A DNA stretch of 64,000 nt, from assembly GCF_005116505.1 (NCBI RefSeq), contig NZ_SWBR01000002.1:186314-250313 (forward strand), given 5' to 3'. This DNA is from Pedobacter polaris. Lineage in GTDB: Bacteria > Bacteroidota > Bacteroidia > Sphingobacteriales > Sphingobacteriaceae. A program made the position numbers and the translations under genes. Below, in pieces: positions 2,705 through 62,052 of the stretch (position 1 is its first letter; every line of letters starts with the position of its first letter). Under the pieces are notes generated by a model. The model worked only from the letters and a program-made list of their open reading frames with translations, did no database searches and was not told the origin of the DNA.

Positions 2705-3106
2705 TTAGCTTGTTAGAATTTTAATCGGGTTAGATAATAATTTGTGAATTGGGCACTTATCTGCAATTACCACTAATCTTTCACGTTGCTCTTGAGTTAT
2801 TGGGCCAAGAAACTCTATTTTTCTTGTAATAGTGGTTTCTTTGCTCATTTCTTCTTCTTTGCAAATGGCTAAGTCTATTTTAATTGCTTCCAATGGGATT
2901 TCTTTTCTATCAGCATACATTCTAATGGTAATGGCCGTACAACTACCCAAACTAGCTAGAAGTAACGCACCTGGCGACATTCCTTCATCTGTTCCGCCTA
3001 ATTCTGTTGGTTCGTCTGCATAAATTAAATGACCACCAGCATAAACTTTAGTTTTGTATTTAGATTGATCTAATTCTGTTATTGCAGTAATAATTGAAGA
3101 ACTCAT
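2705..3106 (-). CDS. OsmC family protein
   Basis: OsmC/Ohr-fold protein, probably a thiol-dependent peroxidase or related stress protein in the cytosol. The two family cysteines are present: Cys56 in LASLGSCTA and Cys118 in DKCPIHKLL. The 133-residue length is normal for the family. It is divergent from the thioesterase gene (43 bases between starts) and convergent with the M1 peptidase. The OsmC and Ohr branches cannot be separated safely by eye. The DKCPIHK pattern is usual in the YhfA/OsmC branch. Confidence 0.9.
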   Translation of the reverse strand: MSSSIITAITELDQSKYKTKVYAGGHLIYADEPTELGGTDEGMSPGALLLASLGSCTAITIRMYADRKEIPLEAIKIDLAICKEEEMSKETTITRKIEFLGPITQEQRERLVVIADKCPIHKLLSNPIKILTS

Positions 3107-4121: not shown

Positions 4122-7100
4122 ATGAACAGAAAATTTATCCTAATTCTATTCGGATTCTTGCTGTTTGCCACAGTAACTTTTGCCCAAAAAACAATAAGAG
4201 GTAAGGTTGTTGATGCTACAGATGGTAAAGGCATTCCTGGTGTAAGTGTACTTGTAAAGGGCACAACATCTGGTGCAACAACTCAAACAGATGGGTCATA
4301 CGCTATTAATGTGCCATCAGATGGTACTACCTTGGTTTTTAAATATCTCGGTTTTGCTACGCAAGAGGTTGCAATTGGTAGCAAGTCAGAAATTAATATT
4401 ACCCTAGCTTCTAGTGCAGAAACTTTAGAAGGTGTTATTGTAACTGCACTTGGTATAAAACGTAGTGAGAAATCAGTAGGTTATTCCGTACAAGTAGTAA
4501 AGGGAGGAGATTTAACTATGACTAAAGATAACAATGTTATCGGTGCCCTAGCGGGTAAAATAGCTGGCGCACAAGTTACTGGATCTTCTGGTGCGAACTT
4601 AGGTGGAACGCAAAAAATTAAATTGAGAGGAGTAAATTCTGTTACAGGTGGCGGTAGCCCTTTAATAGTAATTGATGGTACACCGTTTAATAATGGGAAC
4701 TTTAGTAATTCGGACGCAAACGGAGTAGACCTTGGAAACTTAGCACAAGATTTAAACCCAGAAGACATTGAAACTATCAGTGTTCTAAAAGGACCAGCTG
4801 CTGCAGCCTTGTATGGCTCTAGAGGCCAATACGGTGCAATTTTATATACCACAAAAAAAGGTAAAGAGGGAAAGATGACAGTAGAGTTTAATACTTCTAA
4901 TATGATGGAAAAGGTTGGGAATTTTACGCCTATGCAAAATATATATGGAGTTGGTAACAATCAAACTTTTTTAACTTTTGGTGCTACAACACCGCTTTCT
5001 GGTCAAAAGTATGTTACTGGAAACGACGAGAGTTGGGGGCCTAAAATGGATGGTACACCTATAAGGATGTATTTTTCATTTTATCCACAAGATTCTAGAT
5101 TTGGACAATTAACACCCTTTTCACCACAGCCTAATAACATTAAAGACTTTTATGAAACTGGTTTTAACACAAACAATGGTATAACAATAGCTGGCGGTAA
5201 TGAAAAGATAAATTTAAGGCTAAGCTATAATAATACCTATATCAAAGGAACCTATCCAAATACAAATTTAAAAAGGAACAATTTAGGTTTATCTTCTTCT
5301 ATAAAAATCACAGAAAAACTAACAGCTGGAGCAAACTTGAACTACGCAAACAATGATGGCATAAGACCAGTACAAGGTTATCAAGGTTCTTTCACGGGGG
5401 CATCTCAGTGGTTTCAAAGAAATATAGATATTAAAGAATTAAAAGATTACAAATATCCTGATGGAACGATTAAGAACTGGAATGTTAATCCTAGCACTGC
5501 AGCAGCAACTGCAGGTATTATTTTAACTAATAATCCTTCAGACTGGAATAATCCATATTTTGATGCCTATGAAAATTTAAATCTAGATGATAGAGATAGG
5601 TTTTTTGGAGATATCAATTTATCGTATCAAGTATTGCCAGAACTAAAATTATCTGGATTTGTAAGGTCGGATATGTATGTGCAACGTTTAAGAAACTATA
5701 GAGCTTTAGGAGGGAGGTTTATCGGAGGAACTGCAGATGGATATTCAGAAGGGAAATATCAAAATACAGAAAATAATTATGAGTTTTTAGCGCAGTATAA
5801 CAAAAGTTTTGGAGACATTTCCTTAAATGTTAATGCAGGAGCGAACTTGTTAACTCAAGAGTATTCTTATCTCTCTCAATCTACGGCTGGTGGTTTAGTT
5901 AGCCCAGGATGGTTTAATATCGCAGCTTCCGTTGATAGACCAGTTGCAAACGGTTATTTAAGAAAAAAGCAAGTTAGGAGTGTTTATGGCATGGCGTCTT
6001 TAGGGTATAAGGATATTTATTTTATAGATGCGACTATCAGAAATGATGTTTCTTCAGCTTTGCCTAGTAACAATAATTCATATGTTTATCCATCAGTTTC
6101 GGGTAGTGTTGTATTTAGCGAGTTGCTAAAATGGAAGCCACTGAGTTTTGGTAAATTTAGGATGTCATACGCTGTAGCTGGTTCAGATCTATCTGCATAC
6201 GAAATTTCCCCTGTATATGTAGCAGGTACAGTGTATACGGGTACACCAGTTATTAATACTCAGACATTACCAAGTGTTTTAAGAAATCCGAATATAGAAC
6301 CTTCTTTTGCTAATTCTTTTGAAGTAGGAACTGAGTTGAAGTTTTTAAATAATAGGGTTGGTCTTGATTTTACTTATTATAATCAACTTAATGAAAATCA
6401 AATCATTAACTTGACGGTTTCTCCTGCAAGTGGTTATGGTGCAACTGTTGTTAATGCTGGTAAAATTAGAAACAAAGGGATTGAACTATCTTTGAATGCA
6501 ATCCCTATAAAATCAAATAATTTTACTTGGAATACTGTATTAAACTTTAATAAAAACAACAATATGGTAGAGGAATTACATCCTGATGTTAAGCTATTAA
6601 CTTTAGGTAGTAATGTGTACTCAAACCAGACCGTATTCTTATATGCAGAGGAAGGTAAAGAATTTGGATCTATCGTTGGCCCAGGCTACGCAAAAGATCC
6701 GTCTACTGGCAAAATATTATTGGATGCAGCAGATCAACCAGTTCGTCAATTAGGCGTTGATTTTGGATCTGCTATTCCTGATTTTACAGGCGGCTTTAGA
6801 AACACTTTTAAATATAAAAACCTTGATCTTGGTGTGATGATTGACTTCCAAAAAGGTGGAAATTTTATGAGTTGGACAAATATGTTGGCTGCAAAAGCAG
6901 GTACAGCAGAAATAACTGCCGCTATGAATGATAAAGGATTTAACATAAGAGAACCATTAGCTAATGGGGGAGGTGTAAAAGTAAGTGGGATATATGCTCC
7001 CGGAACAATAAAAACTATTAATAGTGTACCTACTAACGTGGGTGGGCAAGAATTTACTGGTTATGTTGATGCTAGGGAATACTACAGGAACAGATTGGGT

Positions 7101-51304: not shown

Positions 51305-51601
51305 ATGTCTAAGTTTTCTGAATTAATAAATGGCGATAAACCAGTTTTGGTAGATTTTTTCGCTGAATGGTGCGGCCCCTGTAAAATGATGGCACCAATT
51401 TTAGATCAAGTTAAAAGTCAAATAGGAGATAAGGCTTCCATTATTAAAGTTGATGTAGATAAAAATAGAAATGCTGCTTCTGCCTATAATGTTCAGGGAG
51501 TACCAACATTAATTTTATTCAAAAATGGCAAACAAATCTGGCGACAAAGTGGTGTTGTGCAGGCAACTCAACTTAAAGACATTATTGAAAGTAATATTTA
51601 A
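51305..51601 (+). CDS. trxA: Thioredoxin
   Basis: Small dithiol oxidoreductase, cytosolic. The active site WCGPC is at residues 22-26 in [11 protein letters not shown], and the cis-Pro region is [14 protein letters not shown]. The start is ATG 51305 (98 residues). A longer frame from 51269 adds a stretch not found in thioredoxins. Its stop codon overlaps that of the convergent phosphoesterase gene by 4 bases. It has no operon partner here and is one of the housekeeping thioredoxins or a general stress form. Confidence 0.95.
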
Positions 51602-52236
51602 ACCTTTACCACCTTTGTAGGTGTAATGGCATAAACTTGCTCATTTGCTTTAGGTTTTACTAAGCTTAAACCAGTAAATACACTAAAAGCTGGCATTACG
51701 GCATAGTCATTGCCAAAATAAAAGCAAGGAAATTTCAAGCTTTGTTTTGCTTTACCAAAAACAGCAACGCCAGGGTGGATATGGCCACTAATTGGATAAA
51801 GGTTCTCTTCTTTACATTTTACAGCATCGTGAATGAAACAAAAACTCGAGGTACAATAACTAGGATCATGAATTTTGATTCCTAAATTTTGATATTGCTT
51901 TTCATCCAACTTATCATGGTTTCCTTTTACTAAAATGAAGTTTAAATTTGAATACTGCAGCTTCCAACGCCCAAAATCATCAACATCAGTATTTACATCA
52001 TGATGAAACATATCGCCATTAATTAATAGTGTTTTTGGTTGAAATCGTTCTAAAAGTATACTTAATCTTTCTAGGTCACCTTGTGCTAGTGTAGATGGAA
52101 CTTGTAAACCAGCTTTGCGAAAGTGGGCAGCCTTACCTAAATGTAAATCACTTATGGCTAAAAGCTCTTGTTGAGGTAAATATATAGCTCTTTCTTTTGC
52201 TAAAATCAGCTCTTCATCTCTAATCGTTATCGTCAT
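51598..52236 (-). CDS. Ligase-associated metallophosphoesterase
   Basis: Calcineurin-like phosphoesterase of the group linked to the DNA ligase/Lhr repair cluster. Metal-binding motifs are [27 protein letters not shown] and SGHIHPG. 212 residues, normal. It probably removes phosphate from nucleic acid or nucleotide ends during repair. It follows the Lhr-type helicase gene on the same strand (94-base gap with a dispersed repeat in between). Part of a four-gene system with the helicase, ligase and exonuclease genes. Confidence 0.92.
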
Positions 52237-52246
52237 CTATTCAGTA

Positions 52247-52281
52247 TTGTCATGCTAAGCTTATCAGAGCATCTATAAATT
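52247..52281 (+). repeat. Dispersed TGTCAT-type intergenic repeat
   Basis: Begins TTGTCATGCTAAGCTTATC and ends AGCATCTATAAATT. It resembles the TGTCAT start of the other intergenic repeats but diverges after it. Located between the phosphoesterase and helicase genes. Confidence 0.35.
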
Positions 52282-52330
52282 AAACACGGCAAAGTTAAGT
52301 GATTTTGCCTTTTGACACGACAAAATTTCC

Positions 52331-54796
52331 TTATTTAAAAACCTCTACCTTCATACGCTCAATACGCTGCTCTAATTCTTCAGAACTCATATTAGCTCGT
52401 AAACTATCTACTTTAATTGGGAAAGATAGGGGTGTAAACCTTTTCGGGTGAGTAATTACAATTGTACTTTGCTGAATGCGATGTAAAGCAGCAGCCAAAC
52501 GGGGTTCTTCTAATTGTTGATAAAAAACTTCATCATAAGCTTGGCGCAACAATAAATTGTGTTTGTCGAAATCGCTAAAAACATTAAAAAATAATCCTGC
52601 AGAAGATTGTAAATGTCTATTTGCTACATATTTACCAGGATATCCTTGAAAAACTAAACCAGAAATGCATGCAATATCTCGAAACTTTCTACGGGCCATT
52701 TCTGTAGAATTAATGCTTAAGGTAATATCTTCAGTTAAATTCTCTGGCGAAAAAACTTCATAGGCAATCGCATCATCCATCGGTATTTCGATATCACTCA
52801 AGAGCTCAAAACCGTAATCGTTCATTGCCAAAGAAAAAGTAATTGGTATTAATTTACTTAAGCGATAAGCAACTAACGCAGCCAGAATTTCATGAACTAA
52901 TCTGCCTTCAAAAGGATAGGCAAAAAGATGGAATCCCTCTTTGTTATTAATTATTTCAACTAATAACTCATCATTTCTAGGCACATGAGAACGTTCTTGT
53001 TGAACCAAAAATATTGGATAAACAGCATTTAATTCTTCTTCTTGATGAGTTTTATTTAAAACCTCATTATATTTTTTTCTTAAAACTGTTCCTAGGTTTG
53101 ATGAAAGTGGCAATCTTCCTCCTAACCAACTTGGCGACATTGCTTTCTTTTGTTTGCTTTTACGAACAATAACTGTCATGTCTTTAATGTGCACAAATTC
53201 GAGAATTCTGCCTGCCAAGGTAAAGCTATCGCCAACTTTAAGCTTAGATACAAAATACTCCTCCACCATTCCAATATATCCACCAGATAAGAATTTAACT
53301 TTCAGCATTGCATCGCTTACAATCGTTCCAATATGTAATCGATGTCGCATTGCAATTTGTCTGCCTTTTACCTTCCAAAGCCCATCTTCTTCATCTTTAA
53401 CTACTTTTTTAAATTCTTGGTAAGCTGTTAGACTATCACCTCCAGAAGTGATGAATTGCATTAACCAAGACCATTCTTGTGGTAAAAGCATTTTAAAAGC
53501 ATGAGTATTTTTCACTTCTTCATAGATAACTTTATCATCAAAACCATCGCCTATGGCTAGTGTCACTAAATATTGAATCAATGTATCGAAAACCATAATT
53601 ACAGGCTCTCTACTTTCAATATTATTTTCTTTTGCAGCTTCTTTAATCGCTGCAGCTTCAACTAGTTCTAAAGCATGAGTAGGTAAAAAATATATTTTAG
53701 AAGTTTCCCCTGGTGAATGACCAGAACGACCAGCTCTTTGCAAAAACCGAGCGACACCTTTTGGGGAACCAACTTGTATAACAGTATCTACAGGTTTAAA
53801 ATCTACTCCTAAATCTAGTGAAGAGGTAGCAATAACAGCCTTCAGCAGACCTGTATGTAAAGCATCTTCAATCCAATTGCGTAATTCAAAATCTATAGAT
53901 CCATGATGGATTGCTATTCTTCCGGCTAATTCTGGCTCCAGATTGAGCAAATGCTGGTACCACATTTCAGATTGGCCACGAGTATTGATAAAGATTAAAG
54001 TTGTTTTACTCTTTTCTATAATTGGCAACAGCTTATAAGCTAATTTTAATCCTAGATGTCCAGCCCACGGCATGGTCTCAATATCATCTGGTAAGATTGA
54101 TTTTATGATTGTTTTTTTATTCAGCTTTGCTTTAATTATAATTCGTTTTGCATTTAAATCGGGCTCAATTACGTCTAAAGCTTCTTCAATGTTCCCTATA
54201 GTTGCAGAAATTCCCCAAACTCGTAAATGTTGTTGCTTGGCGGCTTTTTGTAAACCTTTAATTCTAGAGATAGCCAATTCTACCAAAACACCACGTTTAT
54301 TACCTAAAAGTTCATGCCACTCATCTGCAACAATACACTTTAAAGTTTCAAACAAAGTTGATGAACCTTTTTGCGCTAATAAAAGATGCAAACTTTCTGG
54401 CGTAATAAGCAAAACCTCTGGCATTGATTTTTTCTGTTGCAGTTTTTCTGCCTGAGTGGTATCTCCATTTCGTACACCAACATGCCAGTCGAGTTCAAGT
54501 TCGGTTAAAACTTCTCGCATCGCTCTTGCAATATCTTTCGCTAATGAACGTAAAGGTGTAATCCAGATGAGTTGTAAGCGGTCTTTGGCTTTTTTTTTAT
54601 CCTTTGTGTTGGCTAAATTTATTCCTTCAATTACAACAGCTAAAAATAAAGAAAACGTTTTTCCGAAACCAGTAGGGGCATTAACTAATCCACTATAGCC
54701 TTTGGCATAATAACTCCATGCTTCTTCCTGAAACTTGAATGGTTTTTTATCATCTTTTTTAAGCCAATCAAGAACTTTTTGCTGTCCCTTATTCAT
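52331..54796 (-). CDS. Ligase-associated DEXH-box helicase (Lhr-Core type)
   Basis: ATP-dependent 3'-5' DNA/RNA helicase of the Lhr family, in the branch associated with ATP-dependent ligase. Walker A is NAPTGFGKTF, the DExH box is VADEWHELLG, motif III is GISATIGN, and motifs V-VI are ATSSLDLGVDF and QRAGRSGHSPGE. The Lhr winged-helix/core region and a beta-barrel-like C-terminal domain follow. 821 residues matches Lhr-Core. It is part of the four-gene repair system. An outer-membrane protein gene on the opposite strand separates it from the ligase gene. Confidence 0.95.
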   Translation of the reverse strand: MNKGQQKVLDWLKKDDKKPFKFQEEAWSYYAKGYSGLVNAPTGFGKTFSLFLAVVIEGINLANTKDKKKAKDRLQLIWITPLRSLAKDIARAMREVLTELELDWHVGVRNGDTTQAEKLQQKKSMPEVLLITPESLHLLLAQKGSSTLFETLKCIVADEWHELLGNKRGVLVELAISRIKGLQKAAKQQHLRVWGISATIGNIEEALDVIEPDLNAKRIIIKAKLNKKTIIKSILPDDIETMPWAGHLGLKLAYKLLPIIEKSKTTLIFINTRGQSEMWYQHLLNLEPELAGRIAIHHGSIDFELRNWIEDALHTGLLKAVIATSSLDLGVDFKPVDTVIQVGSPKGVARFLQRAGRSGHSPGETSKIYFLPTHALELVEAAAIKEAAKENNIESREPVIMVFDTLIQYLVTLAIGDGFDDKVIYEEVKNTHAFKMLLPQEWSWLMQFITSGGDSLTAYQEFKKVVKDEEDGLWKVKGRQIAMRHRLHIGTIVSDAMLKVKFLSGGYIGMVEEYFVSKLKVGDSFTLAGRILEFVHIKDMTVIVRKSKQKKAMSPSWLGGRLPLSSNLGTVLRKKYNEVLNKTHQEEELNAVYPIFLVQQERSHVPRNDELLVEIINNKEGFHLFAYPFEGRLVHEILAALVAYRLSKLIPITFSLAMNDYGFELLSDIEIPMDDAIAYEVFSPENLTEDITLSINSTEMARRKFRDIACISGLVFQGYPGKYVANRHLQSSAGLFFNVFSDFDKHNLLLRQAYDEVFYQQLEEPRLAAALHRIQQSTIVITHPKRFTPLSFPIKVDSLRANMSSEELEQRIERMKVEVFK

Positions 54797-54865
54797 TCGG
54801 TATTTTAAGATTAAACAAAAATAAATAGCATTTGTGTTACAGACTTAAATATTATTCAAGCAGAT

Positions 54866-54895
54866 TTTGATAATACAAAATACATATTACTTTTG
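54866..54895 (+). promoter_or_regulatory. Promoter of the outer-membrane protein gene
   Basis: TTTG (54866-54869), an 18-base spacer and TACTTTTG (54888-54895) match the Bacteroidetes consensus, 31 bases before the ATG. Confidence 0.6.
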
Positions 54896-54926
54896 TAGGT
54901 ATAAACGCTCTAATTTTAATTCATAA

Positions 54927-55634
54927 ATGAAAAAGCTATTACTTTCCGTTCTCCTGTTATCTTCTTCAATAACTACTTTTGCACAAAATAATTTTAAAAA
55001 ATCATCAGCATTTATAGAATTAGGTCCAAGTATACCCACTGGCGATTTTGCTTCTAAAGTGGCTTCTGATGAAAAAGCAGGTTTAGCTACTACAGGTTTT
55101 TATTTTGACTTAGGGTATCAATATCAGTTTTCTAAAAACGTTGGGGCAATTGCTATGTTTAATTGGAGAATTAATGGAATTGATAAACAGGCTTTAAACT
55201 ATTCATTACCTACAGGTTCTGGCGGTAGTATGTCTGTTACAACAACAACCTGGAGAATGGCATCCATTTTGGGAGGCTTAAATCAATCGTTTCCATTAAT
55301 TAAAAACGAAAAATTATCAATAGAGTTTAGAGAGTTAGCTGGTGTACAATTTAGTTCATCACCCGAAATAAATGTTAGTTATAATATTCCGGGGGTTGGT
55401 TCTTCATCGGGCAAACAAGAATCATCAAATGCTACATCATTTAGTTATTTGTTAGGATTAGGCTTTAAATATAAATTAAGTAATAGTTTGGGATTAAGAT
55501 TAAACGCAGATTATCATTCGTCTAATCCTAAGTTTACTGTAATTACTTATCCAGCTGATGCTCCGGTAGAACATAAATCTGAACAAAAAATAAGCACAAT
55601 AAATGTTGGTGTTGGACTAGTTATTGGATTTTAA
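54927..55634 (+). CDS. Outer-membrane beta-barrel protein
   Basis: 235-residue outer-membrane beta-barrel of the porin/OmpW-like group: signal peptide 1-20 (ends TTFAQ), alternating hydrophobic strands separated by short turns, and a C-terminal strand ending in Phe (VGVGLVIGF). It has its own promoter. Its stop codon abuts the convergent ligase stop, and its start is 131 bases from the helicase start, so it splits the repair gene cluster in two. Nothing in its sequence links it to repair. A role in the envelope is likely; the ligand is unknown. Confidence 0.88.
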   Translation: MKKLLLSVLLLSSSITTFAQNNFKKSSAFIELGPSIPTGDFASKVASDEKAGLATTGFYFDLGYQYQFSKNVGAIAMFNWRINGIDKQALNYSLPTGSGGSMSVTTTTWRMASILGGLNQSFPLIKNEKLSIEFRELAGVQFSSSPEINVSYNIPGVGSSSGKQESSNATSFSYLLGLGFKYKLSNSLGLRLNADYHSSNPKFTVITYPADAPVEHKSEQKISTINVGVGLVIGF

Positions 55635-57227
55635 TTATTGGCTAGCTATTAGTAACTGCCTCAAGTCATCTAAAGTATTAATTTCATCGGCTTTTTTATC
55701 TTTTCGCCAACGGGCGATGCGTGGAAAACGTAAGGCCAAACCAGCTTTATGTCTTTTGCTCTCGGCTATACCTTCAAATGCAATTTCAAAAACAAGTTCT
55801 GGTTTTACTGTTCTAACCGGACCAAATTTTTCTATTGCATTTTTGTTTACAAATGAATTTACTTCTTTAATTTCTTTATCTGTTAAACCAGAGTAAGCTT
55901 TAGCAATGGTAATGAGTTGCTCTCCATCTCTTACAGCAAAAGTATAATCGGTGTAAAAATTGGCTCTTCTTCCGCTTCCTTTTTGTGCATAAATCATTAC
56001 GGTATCAACGGTGTAGGGGTTTATTTTCCATTTCCACCAATCGCCACGCTTACGTCCGGTATGAAACACCGAATCTAATTTTTTAAGCATTATGCCTTCG
56101 CTATTGATAGCTCTAGCTGTCTCTCTTAATTCAGCCAGCTTTTCCCAACTTTCAAATTCAATAACCGGAGATAATAAAACGATGTCTTTTATTGCTAAAT
56201 TTCCAATAATATCCACTAAAATCTTTCTTCGTTCTGCTAAAGGTTCCTGTCGGATATCTATCCCTTTGTGTTCTAAAATATCATAAGTAAAGAAGCCTAT
56301 TGGTGCATCATTAAGTTGAGATTTATTTATTGTTTTACGGTTTAGTCTTTGTTGTAGCATACTAAATGATTGTACATTTCCATCTTTAACCGAAAGTATT
56401 TCTCCATCTAAAACAGTACCATCTGGTAAATCATCTTTCAAAAAATGCAATTCTGGAAATTGGTCAGTCACTAGCTCTTCACCCCGCGACCAAATAAATA
56501 ATTCGCCATTTCGTTTTACAATTTGTCCACGAATGCCATCCCATTTCCATTCGGCTTGCCAAGCGCTTGTTTCTCCTAAGTTTTCTGGTTCGGTTTCTAA
56601 AGCATAAGCTAAACAAAAGGGGTAAGGCCAAGAATTATCAGTGTTTACGTGGGCGCCAGCAATTAATTCTTGATAAGTGATTTCATTCGGCAACCACTTA
56701 CCCATAATGCTGTGCATTATCTTGCTACTGTCTTCTTCGCCGTGTTTAGCGATAGCATTAACCAACATTTTATTAGAAACTCCAATTCTAAAATTACCAG
56801 ATATTAACTTGTTAAAAATGAAACGTTCTTGCGTATTAAGGCTATTCCAAGCATTTAAAATGTATTCTTTTTTAGCCTCATCTGTTTCTCCATTTAGTTG
56901 AGCAAGCTCGGTAATCCATTGGTGTAAAGGTTTATCAACTGCATTTTCTGCTGGTGGAAGGACCAAAGCAATCGTTTCACTTAAATCGCCTACGCTACTG
57001 TAACTTTCTGAAAATAACCATTCTGGAATTCCACTTAATTCAATTGCCCATTGTTTAATTAAGGCCGTATTTACAGGTCTTTTAGGTTTTTTACCAGTAA
57101 ACATTGCAATAACATAAGGTTTATCTTTATCATTGGCTTCATTAAAATAAGAAACCAATGCTGCAATTTTATCATTTGTTTTATTGCTAAGCTCTAATTC
57201 TTGGATCAGTTGTGAAAATCGCTTCAT
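55635..57227 (-). CDS. ATP-dependent DNA ligase (repair-associated)
   Basis: Joins DNA nicks using ATP. The order of domains is an N-terminal DNA-binding domain (about 1-200), an adenylation domain with catalytic Lys228 in EWKWDGIRGQ, and an OB-fold domain at the C-terminus (about 420-530). 530 residues. In Bacteroidetes and Proteobacteria this ligase is encoded with a metallo-beta-lactamase exonuclease, an Lhr-type helicase and a phosphoesterase. All four are in this window. The ATG overlaps the exonuclease stop codon (4 bases), so the two are coupled. Confidence 0.95.
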   Translation of the reverse strand: MKRFSQLIQELELSNKTNDKIAALVSYFNEANDKDKPYVIAMFTGKKPKRPVNTALIKQWAIELSGIPEWLFSESYSSVGDLSETIALVLPPAENAVDKPLHQWITELAQLNGETDEAKKEYILNAWNSLNTQERFIFNKLISGNFRIGVSNKMLVNAIAKHGEEDSSKIMHSIMGKWLPNEITYQELIAGAHVNTDNSWPYPFCLAYALETEPENLGETSAWQAEWKWDGIRGQIVKRNGELFIWSRGEELVTDQFPELHFLKDDLPDGTVLDGEILSVKDGNVQSFSMLQQRLNRKTINKSQLNDAPIGFFTYDILEHKGIDIRQEPLAERRKILVDIIGNLAIKDIVLLSPVIEFESWEKLAELRETARAINSEGIMLKKLDSVFHTGRKRGDWWKWKINPYTVDTVMIYAQKGSGRRANFYTDYTFAVRDGEQLITIAKAYSGLTDKEIKEVNSFVNKNAIEKFGPVRTVKPELVFEIAFEGIAESKRHKAGLALRFPRIARWRKDKKADEINTLDDLRQLLIASQ

Positions 57228-58255
57228 TTTGTTTCCTCTTTAGGATTTTCATTCACTTCACCAATTACCTCATCATCTTCTGCACCATATTTAGTAGTAA
57301 CTTCTTCAGAGCAGATGCCAATTTCATTTAAATATTTCGAGAAAACAGCAGTAGAGCCATGTGTAACAAATACTTTTTCAGCTTCTGTAGCTTTAATGGC
57401 TGATAATAATCCTGGCCAATCTGCATGGTCGCTTAAAGCAAAACCAGCATCTGCACTTCTCCATCTTCTGCCTGCTCTAACAGCCATCCAACCAGAGCAA
57501 ACGCCAATTGCAGGTTGTTGTAAGCTTTTCACCCATCTTCCATCAGCTAACGCAGGAGGGATGATTATAATGCCTTTTTGCAATTCATCTTTTTTGATGT
57601 CTATATCAATTCTTATCGTTTCAGGTAATTCTACTCCAGCCGCTGCAAAACCTTCGTTTAAATTGGCAATAGAATTATGTACGTAAATTGGGTATTCGCC
57701 AGCTAAGTTTTTAATTAACCTTTGTGCTTTACCCAAACTATAAGCAACCAAAATGCTTGTTTTACCTTTGTTATTATTGTCTTTTACCCAATTCTTTATT
57801 TGCGCAAATATTAATTCTTGCTCTTGCCAAGTATAAATGGGTAATCCAAAAGTACTTTCAGAAACAAAAGTGTGGCATTTTACAGGTTCAAAAGCGGTAC
57901 TAATTCCATCATATTCTACTTTATAGTCACCAGAAACCACACAGATTTCTCCTTTGTATTCTAGCCTAATTTGCGCCGATCCAATTACATGTCCTGCTGG
58001 GAAAAGACTCAGTTTAACACCATTTATATCTATTTCCTTATTGTATGGCAAGGTTTGCACATTATCTTCTAAACCATAACGTTGTTTTAATATGGGCTTA
58101 GTAAGTTCATGGCATAAATAATTCTTATTTCCCCATTTTACATGATCGGCATGGCCATGTGTGGTAACCGCATAATCTACAGGATGCCAAGGATCAATAT
58201 AAAAATTGCCTTGCTTGCAATAAATTCCTCGATTTGTAAATTTTATTAGTGCCAT
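57224..58255 (-). CDS. Ligase-associated metallo-beta-lactamase exonuclease
   Basis: DNA exonuclease of the beta-CASP/metallo-beta-lactamase type in the ligase-linked repair system. The metal site THGHADHVKWG is near the N-terminus, with later motifs SGDYKVEYDG, LSDHADWPGLL and VTHGSTAVF. The start was taken at ATG 58255 (343 residues). The frame to 58279 adds eight residues not typical of the family. It is first in the exonuclease-ligase operon and faces a satD-like gene across a region with four palindromic sites, so a shared regulator is plausible. Confidence 0.92.
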   Translation of the reverse strand: MALIKFTNRGIYCKQGNFYIDPWHPVDYAVTTHGHADHVKWGNKNYLCHELTKPILKQRYGLEDNVQTLPYNKEIDINGVKLSLFPAGHVIGSAQIRLEYKGEICVVSGDYKVEYDGISTAFEPVKCHTFVSESTFGLPIYTWQEQELIFAQIKNWVKDNNNKGKTSILVAYSLGKAQRLIKNLAGEYPIYVHNSIANLNEGFAAAGVELPETIRIDIDIKKDELQKGIIIIPPALADGRWVKSLQQPAIGVCSGWMAVRAGRRWRSADAGFALSDHADWPGLLSAIKATEAEKVFVTHGSTAVFSKYLNEIGICSEEVTTKYGAEDDEVIGEVNENPKEETK

Positions 58256-58298
58256 TTTGCTATTATAACGAACAAACAAACAATAAGTTTTTGTTTTG

Positions 58299-58320
58299 TT
58301 ATCGGCATTTTAGCCGATAA
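58299..58320. promoter_or_regulatory. Operator-like palindrome 1 of 4
   Basis: TTATCGGC, six bases, GCCGATAA: a perfect 8-bp inverted repeat. Lies 44 bases upstream of the exonuclease ATG. Confidence 0.75.
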
Positions 58321-58326
58321 ATACAA

Positions 58327-58348
58327 TTATCGGGTATTTAGCCGATAT
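58327..58348. promoter_or_regulatory. Operator-like palindrome 2 of 4
   Basis: TTATCGGG, six bases, GCCGATAT. Starts exactly 28 bases after site 1. Confidence 0.75.
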
Positions 58349-58354
58349 ATTAAA

Positions 58355-58376
58355 TTATCGGGTAATTAGCCGATAT
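58355..58376. promoter_or_regulatory. Operator-like palindrome 3 of 4
   Basis: TTATCGGG, six bases, GCCGATAT. Starts exactly 28 bases after site 2. Its right end overlaps a -7-like GATATTTG (58372-58379), which is one base off the TAnnTTTG consensus and could be the satD promoter. Confidence 0.75.
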
Positions 58377-58382
58377 TTGGAA

Positions 58383-58404
58383 TTATCGTGCATTTACCCG
58401 ATAT
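58383..58404. promoter_or_regulatory. Operator-like palindrome 4 of 4
   Basis: TTATCGTG, six bases, CCCGATAT. Degenerate copy, starting exactly 28 bases after site 3 and ending 7 bases before the satD-like ATG. Confidence 0.65.
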
Positions 58405-58411
58405 TAGTATT

Positions 58412-59023
58412 ATGATTGCTGTAATAACAGGAGATATAATTAACTCTAGGACATTGCCAGAAGAATGGATAAGTACATTAAAAAGTGCTTTAGAGGGGTT
58501 ATTTGGTGAAAATTTGAAGTGGGAAATATTTAGAGGAGATAGTTTTCAGGTTGAATTAAACGCAAAAGATGCCCTAATAAATGCCATATATATTAAGGCT
58601 TGTATCAAAACGTTAAAAAAGGCAGATGTTAGAATAGGCATAGGTATTGGAAAGAAAAGTATCAGTGCTGAAAAAGTTACTGAGGCTAATGGAGAAGCTT
58701 ACATTAACTCTGGATCTGCTTTTGATACTTTAAAAATAAACAAGACAAATATGGCACTAAAAACTCCTTGGATTAATTTTGATGAAGAAATGAATTTATC
58801 AATTCGTTTAGCATTAATTGCCATGGATAGTTGGGGCCAAATTACTGCTGAAATGGTAAGATATGCTATTGAAAATCAAAATACAAAGCAAGATAAAATT
58901 GCCAAAATATCAGGAAGGAGCCAATCTTCTGTTAGTGAGGCTTTAAAAAGAGCCCATTTTACAGAAATTATGGAGCTAGAAAATAGATATAGAAACCAAG
59001 TGACTAACCTAATTAAAAAATAA
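58412..59023 (+). CDS. SatD-like protein with C-terminal helix-turn-helix
   Basis: Member of the SatD group: N-terminal domain beginning MIAVITGDIINSRTLP, central RGDSFQVEL and VRIGIGIGKK, then a winged-HTH-like end (about 155-190, KQDKIAKISGRSQSSVSEAL). 203 residues from ATG 58412. An upstream GTG at 58388 lies inside the fourth palindrome and was rejected. In streptococci SatD is named for acid tolerance, but its molecular role is unknown. The HTH and the four operators just upstream suggest that it represses its own gene. Its stop shares a base with the next ATG. Confidence 0.85.
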   Translation: MIAVITGDIINSRTLPEEWISTLKSALEGLFGENLKWEIFRGDSFQVELNAKDALINAIYIKACIKTLKKADVRIGIGIGKKSISAEKVTEANGEAYINSGSAFDTLKINKTNMALKTPWINFDEEMNLSIRLALIAMDSWGQITAEMVRYAIENQNTKQDKIAKISGRSQSSVSEALKRAHFTEIMELENRYRNQVTNLIKK

Positions 59024-59724
59024 TGGAAATCGCCTTGCTAAAACTTTTGTTGGCTCATGTATTGGGCGATTTCTTTTTACAACCAAATGCTTGGGTTATA
59101 GAAAAAGAAGATAAAAAACTCAAATCTAATAAGCTTTATCTACATCTTGTAATTCATTCTGCCTTAATCTTTATCATTTTTGCTTCTTTTGATGTTTGGG
59201 CAGTAGCTTTGACAATAGGTTTAGGTCATGGGATTATTGACGCGATGAAGTTGATGTTTCAAAAGGATAAAACAAAAAGAATATGGTTTTTTGTTGATCA
59301 GATATTACATGTAGCCTTAATTATTGCTTGTTGGCAATACTATTTCCATGCTCCAATAAATTTAGGTTTTTTACAAAATAATCAGTTTTGGTTATTCTTG
59401 CTCGGTGCATTATTTTTAACATCGCCTGCAGCTATATTTATTAGGGTAATTATTGCGAAATGGATACCAGAAAAGGCTTCAACCTCATTACAAGATGCAG
59501 GTAAATTTATTGGTATAATGGAACGCTTGCTGATTTATCTTTTTGTATGCACGCACCATTTTGAAGCTGTCGGCTTTTTATTAGCGGCTAAATCTATTTT
59601 TAGATTCGGAGATTTAAAAGACGCACATGACATTAAACTTACCGAGTACGTATTAATTGGGACTTTGTTGAGCTTCGGAATAGCCTTAATTGTAGCCATG
59701 AGCGTATTAAATTTCAATCTCTAA
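59023..59724 (+). CDS. DUF3307 domain-containing membrane protein
   Basis: Polytopic membrane protein of 233 residues with about six hydrophobic segments, recognised as DUF3307 by the N-terminal LLKLLLAHVLGDFFLQPNAW and by GHGIIDAMKLM in the second segment. The start shares a base with the SatD-like stop codon (TAATG), so the two are translated together. This SatD-DUF3307 pairing is one I recall from other Bacteroidetes genomes. The function is unknown. A terminator follows. Confidence 0.85.
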   Translation: MEIALLKLLLAHVLGDFFLQPNAWVIEKEDKKLKSNKLYLHLVIHSALIFIIFASFDVWAVALTIGLGHGIIDAMKLMFQKDKTKRIWFFVDQILHVALIIACWQYYFHAPINLGFLQNNQFWLFLLGALFLTSPAAIFIRVIIAKWIPEKASTSLQDAGKFIGIMERLLIYLFVCTHHFEAVGFLLAAKSIFRFGDLKDAHDIKLTEYVLIGTLLSFGIALIVAMSVLNFNL

Positions 59725-59771
59725 GGTTAAGTGTGGTTCAGCGAAGACCTCAGTTAAGGTAACTGAAAGCC

Positions 59772-59788
59772 TATCGGAAATGACAAAC
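59772..59788 (-). repeat. Dispersed TGTCAT-type intergenic repeat
   Basis: Read on the minus strand it begins TTTGTCATTTCCGATAG, the same start as the repeat at 14838. Lies between convergent genes. Confidence 0.35.
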
Positions 59789-59825
59789 ATTTGAAACAAA
59801 GAGAATAATGAATTGCATTCAACTA

Positions 59826-59860
59826 AAAAGCCTCAAATATTAAATACTTGAGGCTTTTAT
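59826..59860. terminator. Bidirectional terminator between DUF3307 and S9 peptidase genes
   Basis: AAAAGCCTCAA (59826-59836) and TTGAGGCTTTT (59848-59858) form a perfect 11-bp stem with A/T-rich tails on both sides, between two convergent genes. Confidence 0.8.
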
Positions 59861-59880
59861 TATTTAGAGATTTCTCTCTA

Positions 59881-62052
59881 TTATCTTGCGCCTGGAGGGC
59901 AGTTCTCTTTTAAGAATTTAGTAAAAGTTAAGCCTAAATGTTGTCTAGTTCCTTCGCCTTCAGAAATTCCATGTGTACGATTTGGATAACTCATTAATTG
60001 AAATACTTTTTTGTTTTTAATTAATTCATTAATTAACATTTCTGCATTTTGATAATGAACATTGTCATCTCCGGTACCATGTACATACAATAAATTTCCT
60101 TTCAAGTTTTTAGCATAAGTAATAGGCGAACCTTTTACATAAGCATCTGTATTAGGGAAAGGTGTTCCCATATAACGTTCTTGGTAAATATTATCGTAAG
60201 TTAACTGGTTAGCAACCGCAGCTACAGCAATACCAGTTTTATAAATTTCTGGATATTGGAACAATAAGTTAAGTGTTGATGAACCACCACCACTCCAACC
60301 ATGTACAGCAACACGATCCTTATCCATAAATGGATAAGTTGCCAATAGTTTTTTAGTAGCCATAGCTTGATCACGAATATTAATTACGCCTATGTTTTTA
60401 TAAATAGCCTTTCTCCAAGCTGCACCTTTTGGAACTGGAGCACCACGGTTATCCATAGAAATATAGATGTAACCATCCTTAGCCATATCACCTGCATATA
60501 AGCCAGTTGTGCCAGCGCCCCAAACATCAGCAGCAGTTTGGGAAGCAGGTTCACCATACACATAAAATAAAACAGGATATTTTTTTGTAGCATCAAAATT
60601 ATCAGGCTTTTTCATCCAACCATCCATTTCAACACCATCTTCTGTAGTTACTTTAAAAAATTCTACTTTGTTTTTAGGAGGTGTTTGTTTTGCCAATTGA
60701 CTAGTAATGCTTCCATCCATAGAAATTGGTTGGTTTGCCGCAAAGTTCATCCACTCTGTTACTGGAGAAATTACAGAACTATTGTAACTGTGACGAGCAA
60801 ATAATCCATTAGGAGAAATAGAATAACTATGTGTGCCAGGTAAAACAGAAGGAGTAACCATTTCTAATTTACCTTTACCATCTAATTTCGTTTTATATAA
60901 ATATTTTTGAGTTGCATTAGTTGGTGATGCTAAAAAATAAACTGTATTATTTTTTTCATCCACTAAACTTACATCTATTACATCGTAGTTGCCTTTTGTA
61001 ATTAATGTTTCTTTTTTACCATCTCGGCTAATGCGATACAAGTGTGTATAACCGTCTTTATCTGATTGGTAAACAAATTCCTTATTGCCATTTAACCAAA
61101 AAAAGCTGTCTTGAGCATCTATCCAAGCTTTATTATTTTCTTTGTAAATTTCTGCACTAGCTCCAGTTGTGGCATTGGCAACAAATAATTTACTTTCATT
61201 TTGCTCACGATTTAATTGTTGTAAAATTACTTCGTTTGTATTTGGAATCCAATCCATACGAGGGATATAGTGTTGAACATTATCACCAGGAACTGCTAAC
61301 CAGTTTGTTTTCGCAGTTTCAATATCTACAACACCAATTTTGCAAGAAGAAGGATCTTGGCCAACTTTAGGGTATTCTACAGGAACATTAAAAGAATAGA
61401 TCGAATCTGTATTGTTAATCATTAAGAAATTTTTGATTTTGGTTGCATCAATTTCCCAGTAAGCAATAGATTTTCCATCTGGCGACCATCTAAAACCATC
61501 TAAACAGCCAAATTCTTCTTCATAAACCCAATCAAAAGTCCCATTTATCATTCTCGCAGTTCCATTTGTAGTTAATGCTTTTATAGCACCACTTGCTAAA
61601 TCTTCTACATATATATTATGCTCACTAACATAGGCAACTTTGCTACCATCAGGTGAAAATTTAGCAAACATTAATGATGATGCAGGTTTGCCCTTTCCAA
61701 TTTGTTTTAAAGTATTATTTGTAATGTCAGCAACCCAATAGTCTCCACGGCTATCTTGACGCCAAACTCTCTTTGTATTTGTATAAATTAAAGCTTTTGT
61801 ACCATCGCTGGTTAAATCAAAGCTCCTTACATTTAATGGACTAGTTGCGTTTGCAGGTGTTAGCAATTGCCTGCTTACTACTGTTTTGCGATCGTTTTTA
61901 GGTAAAGTAATGGTAACGATTTCTCCACCAGCATTTTGATAATAACTGTTCCCGTCTTTAGTCCAGTTAATGCCACCTCTCTGTGCTTTTACATTGCTAT
62001 TACCAATAAAGGCTACAATTGCAACAGCGATAAATAGTTTAGTTAATTTCAT
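59881..62052 (-). CDS. Secreted S9 dipeptidyl peptidase IV-like protease
   Basis: Exported serine peptidase that releases X-Pro or similar dipeptides. 723 residues: signal peptide 1-23 (ends NVKAQ), an N-terminal propeller with the DPP-IV domain (about 90-460, DWVYEEEFG carries the substrate-amine-binding Glu pair), then the hydrolase domain. The triad is Ser587 in HGWSGGGS, Asp662 in HGTGDDNVH and His694 in PNRTHGIS. The EEEFG segment supports true dipeptidyl-peptidase activity. One base separates its start codon region from the stop codon of the upstream LtaS-like gene, so they form an operon. Confidence 0.94.
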   Translation of the reverse strand: MKLTKLFIAVAIVAFIGNSNVKAQRGGINWTKDGNSYYQNAGGEIVTITLPKNDRKTVVSRQLLTPANATSPLNVRSFDLTSDGTKALIYTNTKRVWRQDSRGDYWVADITNNTLKQIGKGKPASSLMFAKFSPDGSKVAYVSEHNIYVEDLASGAIKALTTNGTARMINGTFDWVYEEEFGCLDGFRWSPDGKSIAYWEIDATKIKNFLMINNTDSIYSFNVPVEYPKVGQDPSSCKIGVVDIETAKTNWLAVPGDNVQHYIPRMDWIPNTNEVILQQLNREQNESKLFVANATTGASAEIYKENNKAWIDAQDSFFWLNGNKEFVYQSDKDGYTHLYRISRDGKKETLITKGNYDVIDVSLVDEKNNTVYFLASPTNATQKYLYKTKLDGKGKLEMVTPSVLPGTHSYSISPNGLFARHSYNSSVISPVTEWMNFAANQPISMDGSITSQLAKQTPPKNKVEFFKVTTEDGVEMDGWMKKPDNFDATKKYPVLFYVYGEPASQTAADVWGAGTTGLYAGDMAKDGYIYISMDNRGAPVPKGAAWRKAIYKNIGVINIRDQAMATKKLLATYPFMDKDRVAVHGWSGGGSSTLNLLFQYPEIYKTGIAVAAVANQLTYDNIYQERYMGTPFPNTDAYVKGSPITYAKNLKGNLLYVHGTGDDNVHYQNAEMLINELIKNKKVFQLMSYPNRTHGISEGEGTRQHLGLTFTKFLKENCPPGAR

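Follow-up and report, generated by a model that had tools for sequence, protein, structure and literature searches.

Four regularly spaced palindromes stand directly before a satD-like gene of Pedobacter polaris, in the 64,000-nucleotide stretch of DNA analysed here (the window), and they raise the question of which protein reads them and with what effect on the genes that follow. An earlier note on this DNA had described four 22-bp sites with a 28-bp period, separated by the spacers ATACAA, ATTAAA and TTGGAA and ending 7 bases before the satD-like ATG (58412), and its coordinates and letters proved right to the base (Table 1). In our reading, to which we give a probability of roughly 0.85, the array is the operator of an operon formed by satD and a DUF3307 gene; it would be bound by SatD, which would repress its own operon as a filament and be released by a ligand of its palm domain.

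Table 1. Features of the window that bear on the array, with coordinates on the 64,000-nucleotide stretch
Feature	Position	Strand	Remark	Basis
Palindrome 1	58299–58320	.	TTATCGGC ATTTTA GCCGATAA, perfect 8-bp arms	sequence
Palindrome 2	58327–58348	.	TTATCGGGTATTTAGCCGATAT	sequence
Palindrome 3	58355–58376	.	TTATCGGGTAATTAGCCGATAT	sequence
Palindrome 4	58383–58404	.	TTATCGTGCATTTACCCGATAT; deviant left half-site TATCGT	sequence
Whole lattice, proposed SatD operator	58299–58404	.	eight 6-bp half-sites, alternating orientation, every 14 bp	
Possible core promoter of satD–DUF3307	58372–58379	+	GATATTTG	pattern only
satD-like gene, PF16264	58412–59023	+	203 aa; predicted palm domain and C-terminal helix-turn-helix	
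Predicted palm / nucleotide-cyclase-like domain, SatD residues 1–140	58412–58831	+	D8 and D43 invariant in 28/28	
Predicted recognition helix, SatD residues 171–180	58922–58951	+	172, 173 and 176 track operator address	model
DUF3307 membrane-protein gene, PF11750	59023–59724	+	ATG overlaps satD stop codon	
Divergent neighbour, ligase-associated DNA damage response exonuclease (TIGR04122)	57224–58255	-		

Geometry of the array upstream of satD

The half-sites of the window array, TATCGG/CCGATA, start at 58300, 58314, 58328, 58342, 58356, 58370, 58384 and 58398, exactly 14 bp apart. The gap between half-sites is 8 bp within the palindromes and also 8 bp between them, so that the division into 22-bp sites and 6-bp spacers is one of two readings in this species. 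The exact motif TATCGG-N8-CCGATA occurs three times in the whole 4.57-Mb genome, each time in this array, and palindrome 4 is one mismatch away from it; with up to two mismatches allowed, the motif is no commoner genome-wide than its reversed control (127 against 167 per strand). The helix-face arithmetic of the earlier note, in which 84 bp make 8 turns of 10.5 and bring sites 1 and 4 to nearly the same face, is right for 28-bp arrays but is not kept in relatives with 29-bp spacing.

Loci for comparison were drawn from four sources, using both protein and alignment queries: the 79 of 151 own-family genomes with matches, 40 named loci, 95 of 395 phylum genomes and 100 fetched regions. The resulting 199 loci gave 189 distinct proteins once 10 identical ones had been dropped; the sample leaves out 13 listed phylum matches, mostly weak. 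Of the 189 genes, 159 have upstream an array whose period is 28 or 29 bp, and the 567 stretches taken from the same loci as controls yield 2 (Fisher 3e-129, relatedness ignored). Within 260 bp upstream and with periods of 20–35 allowed, 161 of the 189 regions pass z > 5, and the periods counted after this selection are 28 bp in 122, 29 bp in 37 and others in 2; 17 control stretches pass, with period 28 in 2 and period 29 in 0. In an independent test over 180 bp, all 100 shuffles were beaten by 158 regions out of 189 (periods 28 in 115, 29 in 33, 56–58 in 9 and 15 in 1), and in de novo lattice fits 135 of 189 lie above the best of 567 shuffled fits, all of them at period 28 (105) or 29 (30). 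The earlier note had seen in the array an operator to which one protein binds cooperatively, and had let this claim depend on conservation of motif or spacing upstream of satD-like genes; the comparison leaves the claim standing.

Each of the 159 arrays holds 2–7 sites, mostly 3 (107 arrays), and the steps from site to site are 28 bp (287), 29 bp (85), 27 bp (3) and 30 bp (2). The geometry holds while the letters drift. The 30 satD genes that fail for a 28/29-bp array include several of the most diverged (L188–L192, L196, L197), and in a few of them (L018, L021) copies that are short or irregular can be made out by eye. Beyond the phylum, 28-bp repeats are seen at plasmid- or chromid-borne loci of Vibrio (three copies), Salinivibrio (two records with two copies each) and Pseudoalteromonas (two copies), and a 29-bp repeat at one of Enterobacter kobei (two copies). 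Their letters differ, and two-copy repeats of this kind can arise by chance. The array copies of pEC34A-type plasmids are less regular, and no repeats at 28 or 29 bp were found for the Segatella (L204) and P. fragi (L205) copies. At four loci (L116, L120, L123, L129) the left and right half-sites differ alike in most copies (e.g. TATCAC left, TATCAT right), a consistency that gives these sites a direction.

Control by or for the divergent exonuclease operon was rejected as the main role of the array, since 128 of the 157 satD genes that lack a divergent exonuclease neighbour still have an array (taken here as z > 5 with period 28 or 29); the array follows satD whatever lies upstream. In the window, a ligase-associated DNA repair cluster of exonuclease, ATP-dependent ligase, DEXH helicase and PdeM (51598–58255) adjoins the array, and a separate ORF lies inside this cluster at 54927–55634.

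The SatD protein and the operator address

The window SatD matches PF16264 with 33.4 bits (cut-off 29), its residues 2–200 aligning with positions 2–210 of the 211 in the profile. The AF2 model (pLDDT 93, pTM 0.91) consists of a palm-like domain followed by a helix-turn-helix, and the N-terminal half is predicted to be a palm domain of the GGDEF/cyclase/Cas10-like kind. VIA-align pairs the model with GTP cyclohydrolase III, GGDEF, adenylyl cyclase and Cmr2 structures, at best Z scores of 9.6–9.9 over 110–130 residues and an rmsd of 2.5–3.6, and the best Foldseek E-value is 4.2e-4. By secondary structure, the invariant D8 and D43 lie in the end of strand 1 and the β2–β3 turn, the elements in which palm-superfamily proteins carry metal-binding acidic residues, and they may correspond to these. 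The GG(D/E)EF signature is absent from the 28 aligned SatD proteins, which have RGDxF at the corresponding place. A sequence search of solved structures with query A1 gave weak matches only, to DNA-binding proteins (best E 0.027). In PADLOC the sole match of the window SatD is mad1 (E 0.034), and it is the helix-turn-helix end of the pEC34A SatD that matches CasR/CARF models (best E 8e-5).

Half-sites consist of TAT followed by a three-base address, of which there are 20 kinds in the 135 arrays used for covariation (those of the 159 with a TAT consensus and half-site identity of at least 0.85). The commonest are CGG (52), AAG (11), CTG (10), CGT (9) and TAC (9). The half-site table was built with a bonus for TAT; with the bonus removed, 121 of 159 arrays keep TAT among their best frames. 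Residues 170–178 of SatD change with the address: among proteins of 70–95% palm identity they differ by 0.30 when the addresses differ (16 pairs) and by 0.01 when they are the same (202 pairs), and at 55–70% palm identity by 0.43 (119 pairs) and 0.14 (202 pairs). The remaining C-terminal domain separates the address classes less, with 0.19 against 0.17 and 0.58 against 0.46 in the two ranges. In pairs matched for palm identity, E176, S173 and S172 track the address best of all 203 positions. A tree of the palm domain only, on which the address changes 40 times, places them at ranks 3, 1 and 4 of 186; covariation on the tree is modest (z 2.5–3.3), and G32 ranks second. The SatD proteins of two Pedobacter species whose arrays are TATCTG (L052, L054) read QPLVSGAL where near relatives with TATCGG read QSSVSEAL.

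This covariation of the address with the predicted recognition helix is the main evidence that SatD reads the array. Together with the conserved spacing and the linkage to satD, it supports the earlier note's attribution of the array to the satD-like protein, which very probably binds there and represses its own operon. A SatD dimer would sit on each TATNNN-N8-NNNATA palindrome through its C-terminal helix-turn-helix; adjacent dimers, 28 or 29 bp apart, would touch and form a short nucleoprotein filament; and the filament would cover the core promoter and keep the operon off. Residues 172, 173 and 176 would be the main determinants of the three-base address, which would be particular to each SatD lineage. 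Release of SatD is probably brought about by a nucleotide that the palm domain binds or makes, and production of DUF3307 would then await a signal. Comparative evidence strongly supports a SatD operator lattice; we infer that SatD physically binds it, as a dimer and cooperatively, that it represses rather than activates, that a ligand acts on it, and that DUF3307 does harm once derepressed.

The arrays suggest a rule in which spacing (28 or 29 bp) and anchor (TAT) are fixed while the three-base address varies and can be matched with three residues of SatD, and they offer a natural data set for a recognition code on an array of fixed geometry. SatD would gain a concrete role, as a predicted DNA-binding sensor with a palm domain and a tie to a membrane partner. 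The literature searched held no experiment on a SatD operator, and that on palm-domain regulators and on phage decoys of repressors (titles for the latter) held nothing on SatD.

Control of the satD–DUF3307 operon

The -7 element of Bacteroidetes promoters has the consensus TAnnTTTG. The best match to it in the window, with one mismatch, is the possible core promoter of Table 1, which overlaps the right arm of palindrome 3. Of the 159 array regions 78 contain TAnnTTTG, where mononucleotide shuffles would lead one to expect 21, and 49 of its 108 occurrences start +6 or +8 from a palindrome axis and overlap the right arm; a sigma-70 scan gave no excess over shuffles. In 57 of the 159 arrays the last site ends 7–10 bases before the start codon. 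Both the overlap of the -7-like element with a palindrome arm and the closeness of the last site to the start codon suit a repressor, and both speak against SatD binding the array as an activator, or with either sign depending on a palm-domain ligand. We regard such action as unlikely, even if the sign of regulation does not follow directly from the computations and the ability of palm domains to bind nucleotides makes a ligand switch possible. In S. pyogenes, satD is reported as the single accessory gene whose essentiality score falls in the top quarter, and is present in 178 of 249 genomes (PMC11323703). In our reading, a gene that is accessory yet essential when present suits an antitoxin, or a protein that represses a harmful neighbour, rather than an activator.

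Exact two-site TATCGG arrays are found in 29 of the 79 satD-positive own-family genomes and in none of the 72 satD-negative ones, the placement of the 29 among the 79 having been compared by eye. This absence, and the tracking of the SatD recognition helix by the address, make it highly improbable that satD is controlled by some other host regulator bound to the array.

SatD as autorepressor also fits the make-up of the operon. The DUF3307 gene follows satD in 182 of 189 cases, the commonest offsets being overlaps of 4 bases (57) and 1 base (31). In type II toxin-antitoxin operons the antitoxin gene comes first, and satD–DUF3307 has this order, with a candidate antitoxin-like gene first and the two closely coupled; we know of no SatD–DUF3307 complex. 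The DUF3307 model contains helices only (pLDDT 85, pTM 0.60), and Foldseek found no match to it with E < 0.001, which does not in itself make the fold new. The 44 invariant columns in 24 sequences include several His and Asp residues, and the protein may be a membrane enzyme. PADLOC gave no match for the three DUF3307 proteins searched, nor did the phages collection for DUF3307; PHROGs holds a DUF3307-related family, phrog_2470, and a jumbo phage has been reported with DUF3307 (PMC8504454).

The satD-like and DUF3307 genes are plasmid-borne in several records from Enterobacteriaceae, Pseudomonas and Vibrio (L203, which is pEC34A of 3770 bp, and L202, L205, L209 and L201). They make up a large part of two very small plasmids, as a mobile module. 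Megablast found no pEC34A operon in E. coli genomes.

Arrays of like sites resemble plasmid centromeres, and satD–DUF3307 is carried by small plasmids, including one of 3.77 kb; a DNA-bound SatD and a membrane DUF3307 might on that basis segregate or anchor a replicon. Many copies, however, lie in contigs of at least a megabase with varied neighbours, and the array covers the operon's own upstream region, so that we give a centromere-like site very little credence.

Least probable is that the palindromes are hairpins of a leader RNA, as a riboregulator or repeated terminators: each site could fold and two are terminator-like on the minus strand, but the same change on both sides, keeping the dyad, is seen at only 13 of 233 deviating half-site positions, the window has no Rfam match at 56000–61000 (0 matches), the copies within one array share nearly one half-site, and transcription, as judged from the -7 pattern, probably starts downstream of most copies. 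With so few dyad-keeping changes and no Rfam match, we reject this reading; 211 of the 233 deviations are single-sided, which argues for protein half-sites.

Autorepressors with tandem operators are known; the SatD arrays stand out by a conserved ruler with drifting letters. To our knowledge the Omega repressor of pSM19035 has no palm domain, and it reads seven-base heptads in place of the 28/29-bp palindromes of SatD. Like SatD in the proposed filament, it has been suggested to form polymers cooperatively on operators that hold an array of short repeats (PMC4803016). The same source describes, for YefM-YoeB and other type II toxin-antitoxin operons, autorepression at spaced palindromes whose spacing is needed for cooperative binding; satD–DUF3307 differs from these in that DUF3307 is a membrane protein and the array has 2–7 like sites. 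In Panoptes (mCpol-2TM-beta) a membrane toxin is held in check by a palm-domain protein from the adjacent gene (PMC12657230). The relevant portions of that report mention no DNA-binding domain for mCpol, and the restraint is a cyclic dinucleotide; the beta-barrel of 2TM-beta contrasts with the DUF3307 model, in which all is helical. The Streptococcus SatD (secretion and acid tolerance) shares its family name with PF16264, the family of the window protein; the relevant portions of the reports mention it for acid tolerance, expression and essentiality, and describe no operator there.

Copies of the array away from satD

The 29 genomes with exact two-site TATCGG arrays have them at satD in 27 cases and elsewhere in 4, and in two genomes (G052, G073) they lie away from satD only. 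The off-satD arrays of these two genomes (L327 and L328, about 2990–3060) have similar neighbouring sequence, and the two sites of each array are near mirror images. In G048 the array stands beside phage replication genes and overlaps the end of an ORF. In a prophage of G088 (L210:2986-3033) 24 bases separate the end of a two-site array from the start of the terminase large-subunit gene, which is possibly under the control of the host SatD. Blastn of this prophage region found nothing in the phages collection. Single exact sites were seen at a few further places in the ten genomes searched.

In IMG/VR, scans for two sites with 7–10 bp between them gave 21 stretches for the address CGG, 2 for CTG, 17 for TAC and 67 for AAG, and the gaps for these four addresses are 8 or 9 bp in all. 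The scrambled half-site TATGGC gave 0 and TATGAA 1, at a 10-bp gap; CGG gave 0 at gaps of 10–39. SatD-type arrays at 28 or 29 bp with host-like addresses are carried by 105 distinct viral loci (L220–L324). The period goes with the address as it does in hosts: TAC pairs are spaced 28 bp in 15 of 17 viral and 9 of 9 host cases, and AAG pairs 29 bp in 65 of 71 and 8 of 11. By count and spacing the viral copies are real.

The 4,825 ORFs of the 105 loci, which are parts of records whose remainder could hold a satD, gave no HMM match to SatD or DUF3307, and SatD was found neither in the phages collection nor in viral contigs, the latter searched with two conserved peptides. Phage genes were confirmed in some of the loci (head morphogenesis in L229, DNA polymerase in L231, the ATP-dependent protease family in L264), and the G088 prophage has a terminase and a head protein, its array and terminase being those of L232. 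Among 10 viral ORFs tested against PHROGs, 5 had no match, one other hit a methyltransferase and another a transposase; a sorting domain of Bacteroidetes type is present in L302. These features suggest that host DNA may make up part of some viral records. When 40 of the 105 were searched as whole records, most of them showed, by eye and among the matches listed, a single like array.

Placed against mechanical ORFs from no gene finder, the 86 distinct viral arrays lie inside ORFs (8), in co-directional (44), convergent (20) or divergent (10) gaps, or at an edge (4). There is an excess of arrays in convergent gaps (20 of 74, compared with 49 of 359; p 0.008) and none in divergent ones (10 of 74, compared with 64 of 359; p 0.5), which argues that many viral arrays are not promoter operators. 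No flanking gene is common to them, the 122 flanking ORFs falling into 93 clusters.

It is possible, though we lean against it, that phages carry two-site SatD operator arrays with the addresses used by hosts as decoys that titrate SatD during infection, and that satD–DUF3307 is a phage-facing, antitoxin-like module. Against such decoys, the position of the G088 array is the one expected of an operator for the terminase gene, and titration of SatD should switch DUF3307 on, from which the gain to the phage is doubtful if DUF3307 harms the cell. In a weaker form, phages may borrow the host SatD to repress genes of their own. Were the arrays decoys, the drifting three-base addresses would record an arms race in which the phage counter-measure is DNA and not protein; the phage-borne copies make an orphan operon a candidate player in phage–host conflict. 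Three viral loci carry two different addresses, in L247 side by side (L247:7516-7610), and further viral arrays can be seen at L223:1248-1295 and 4921-4969.
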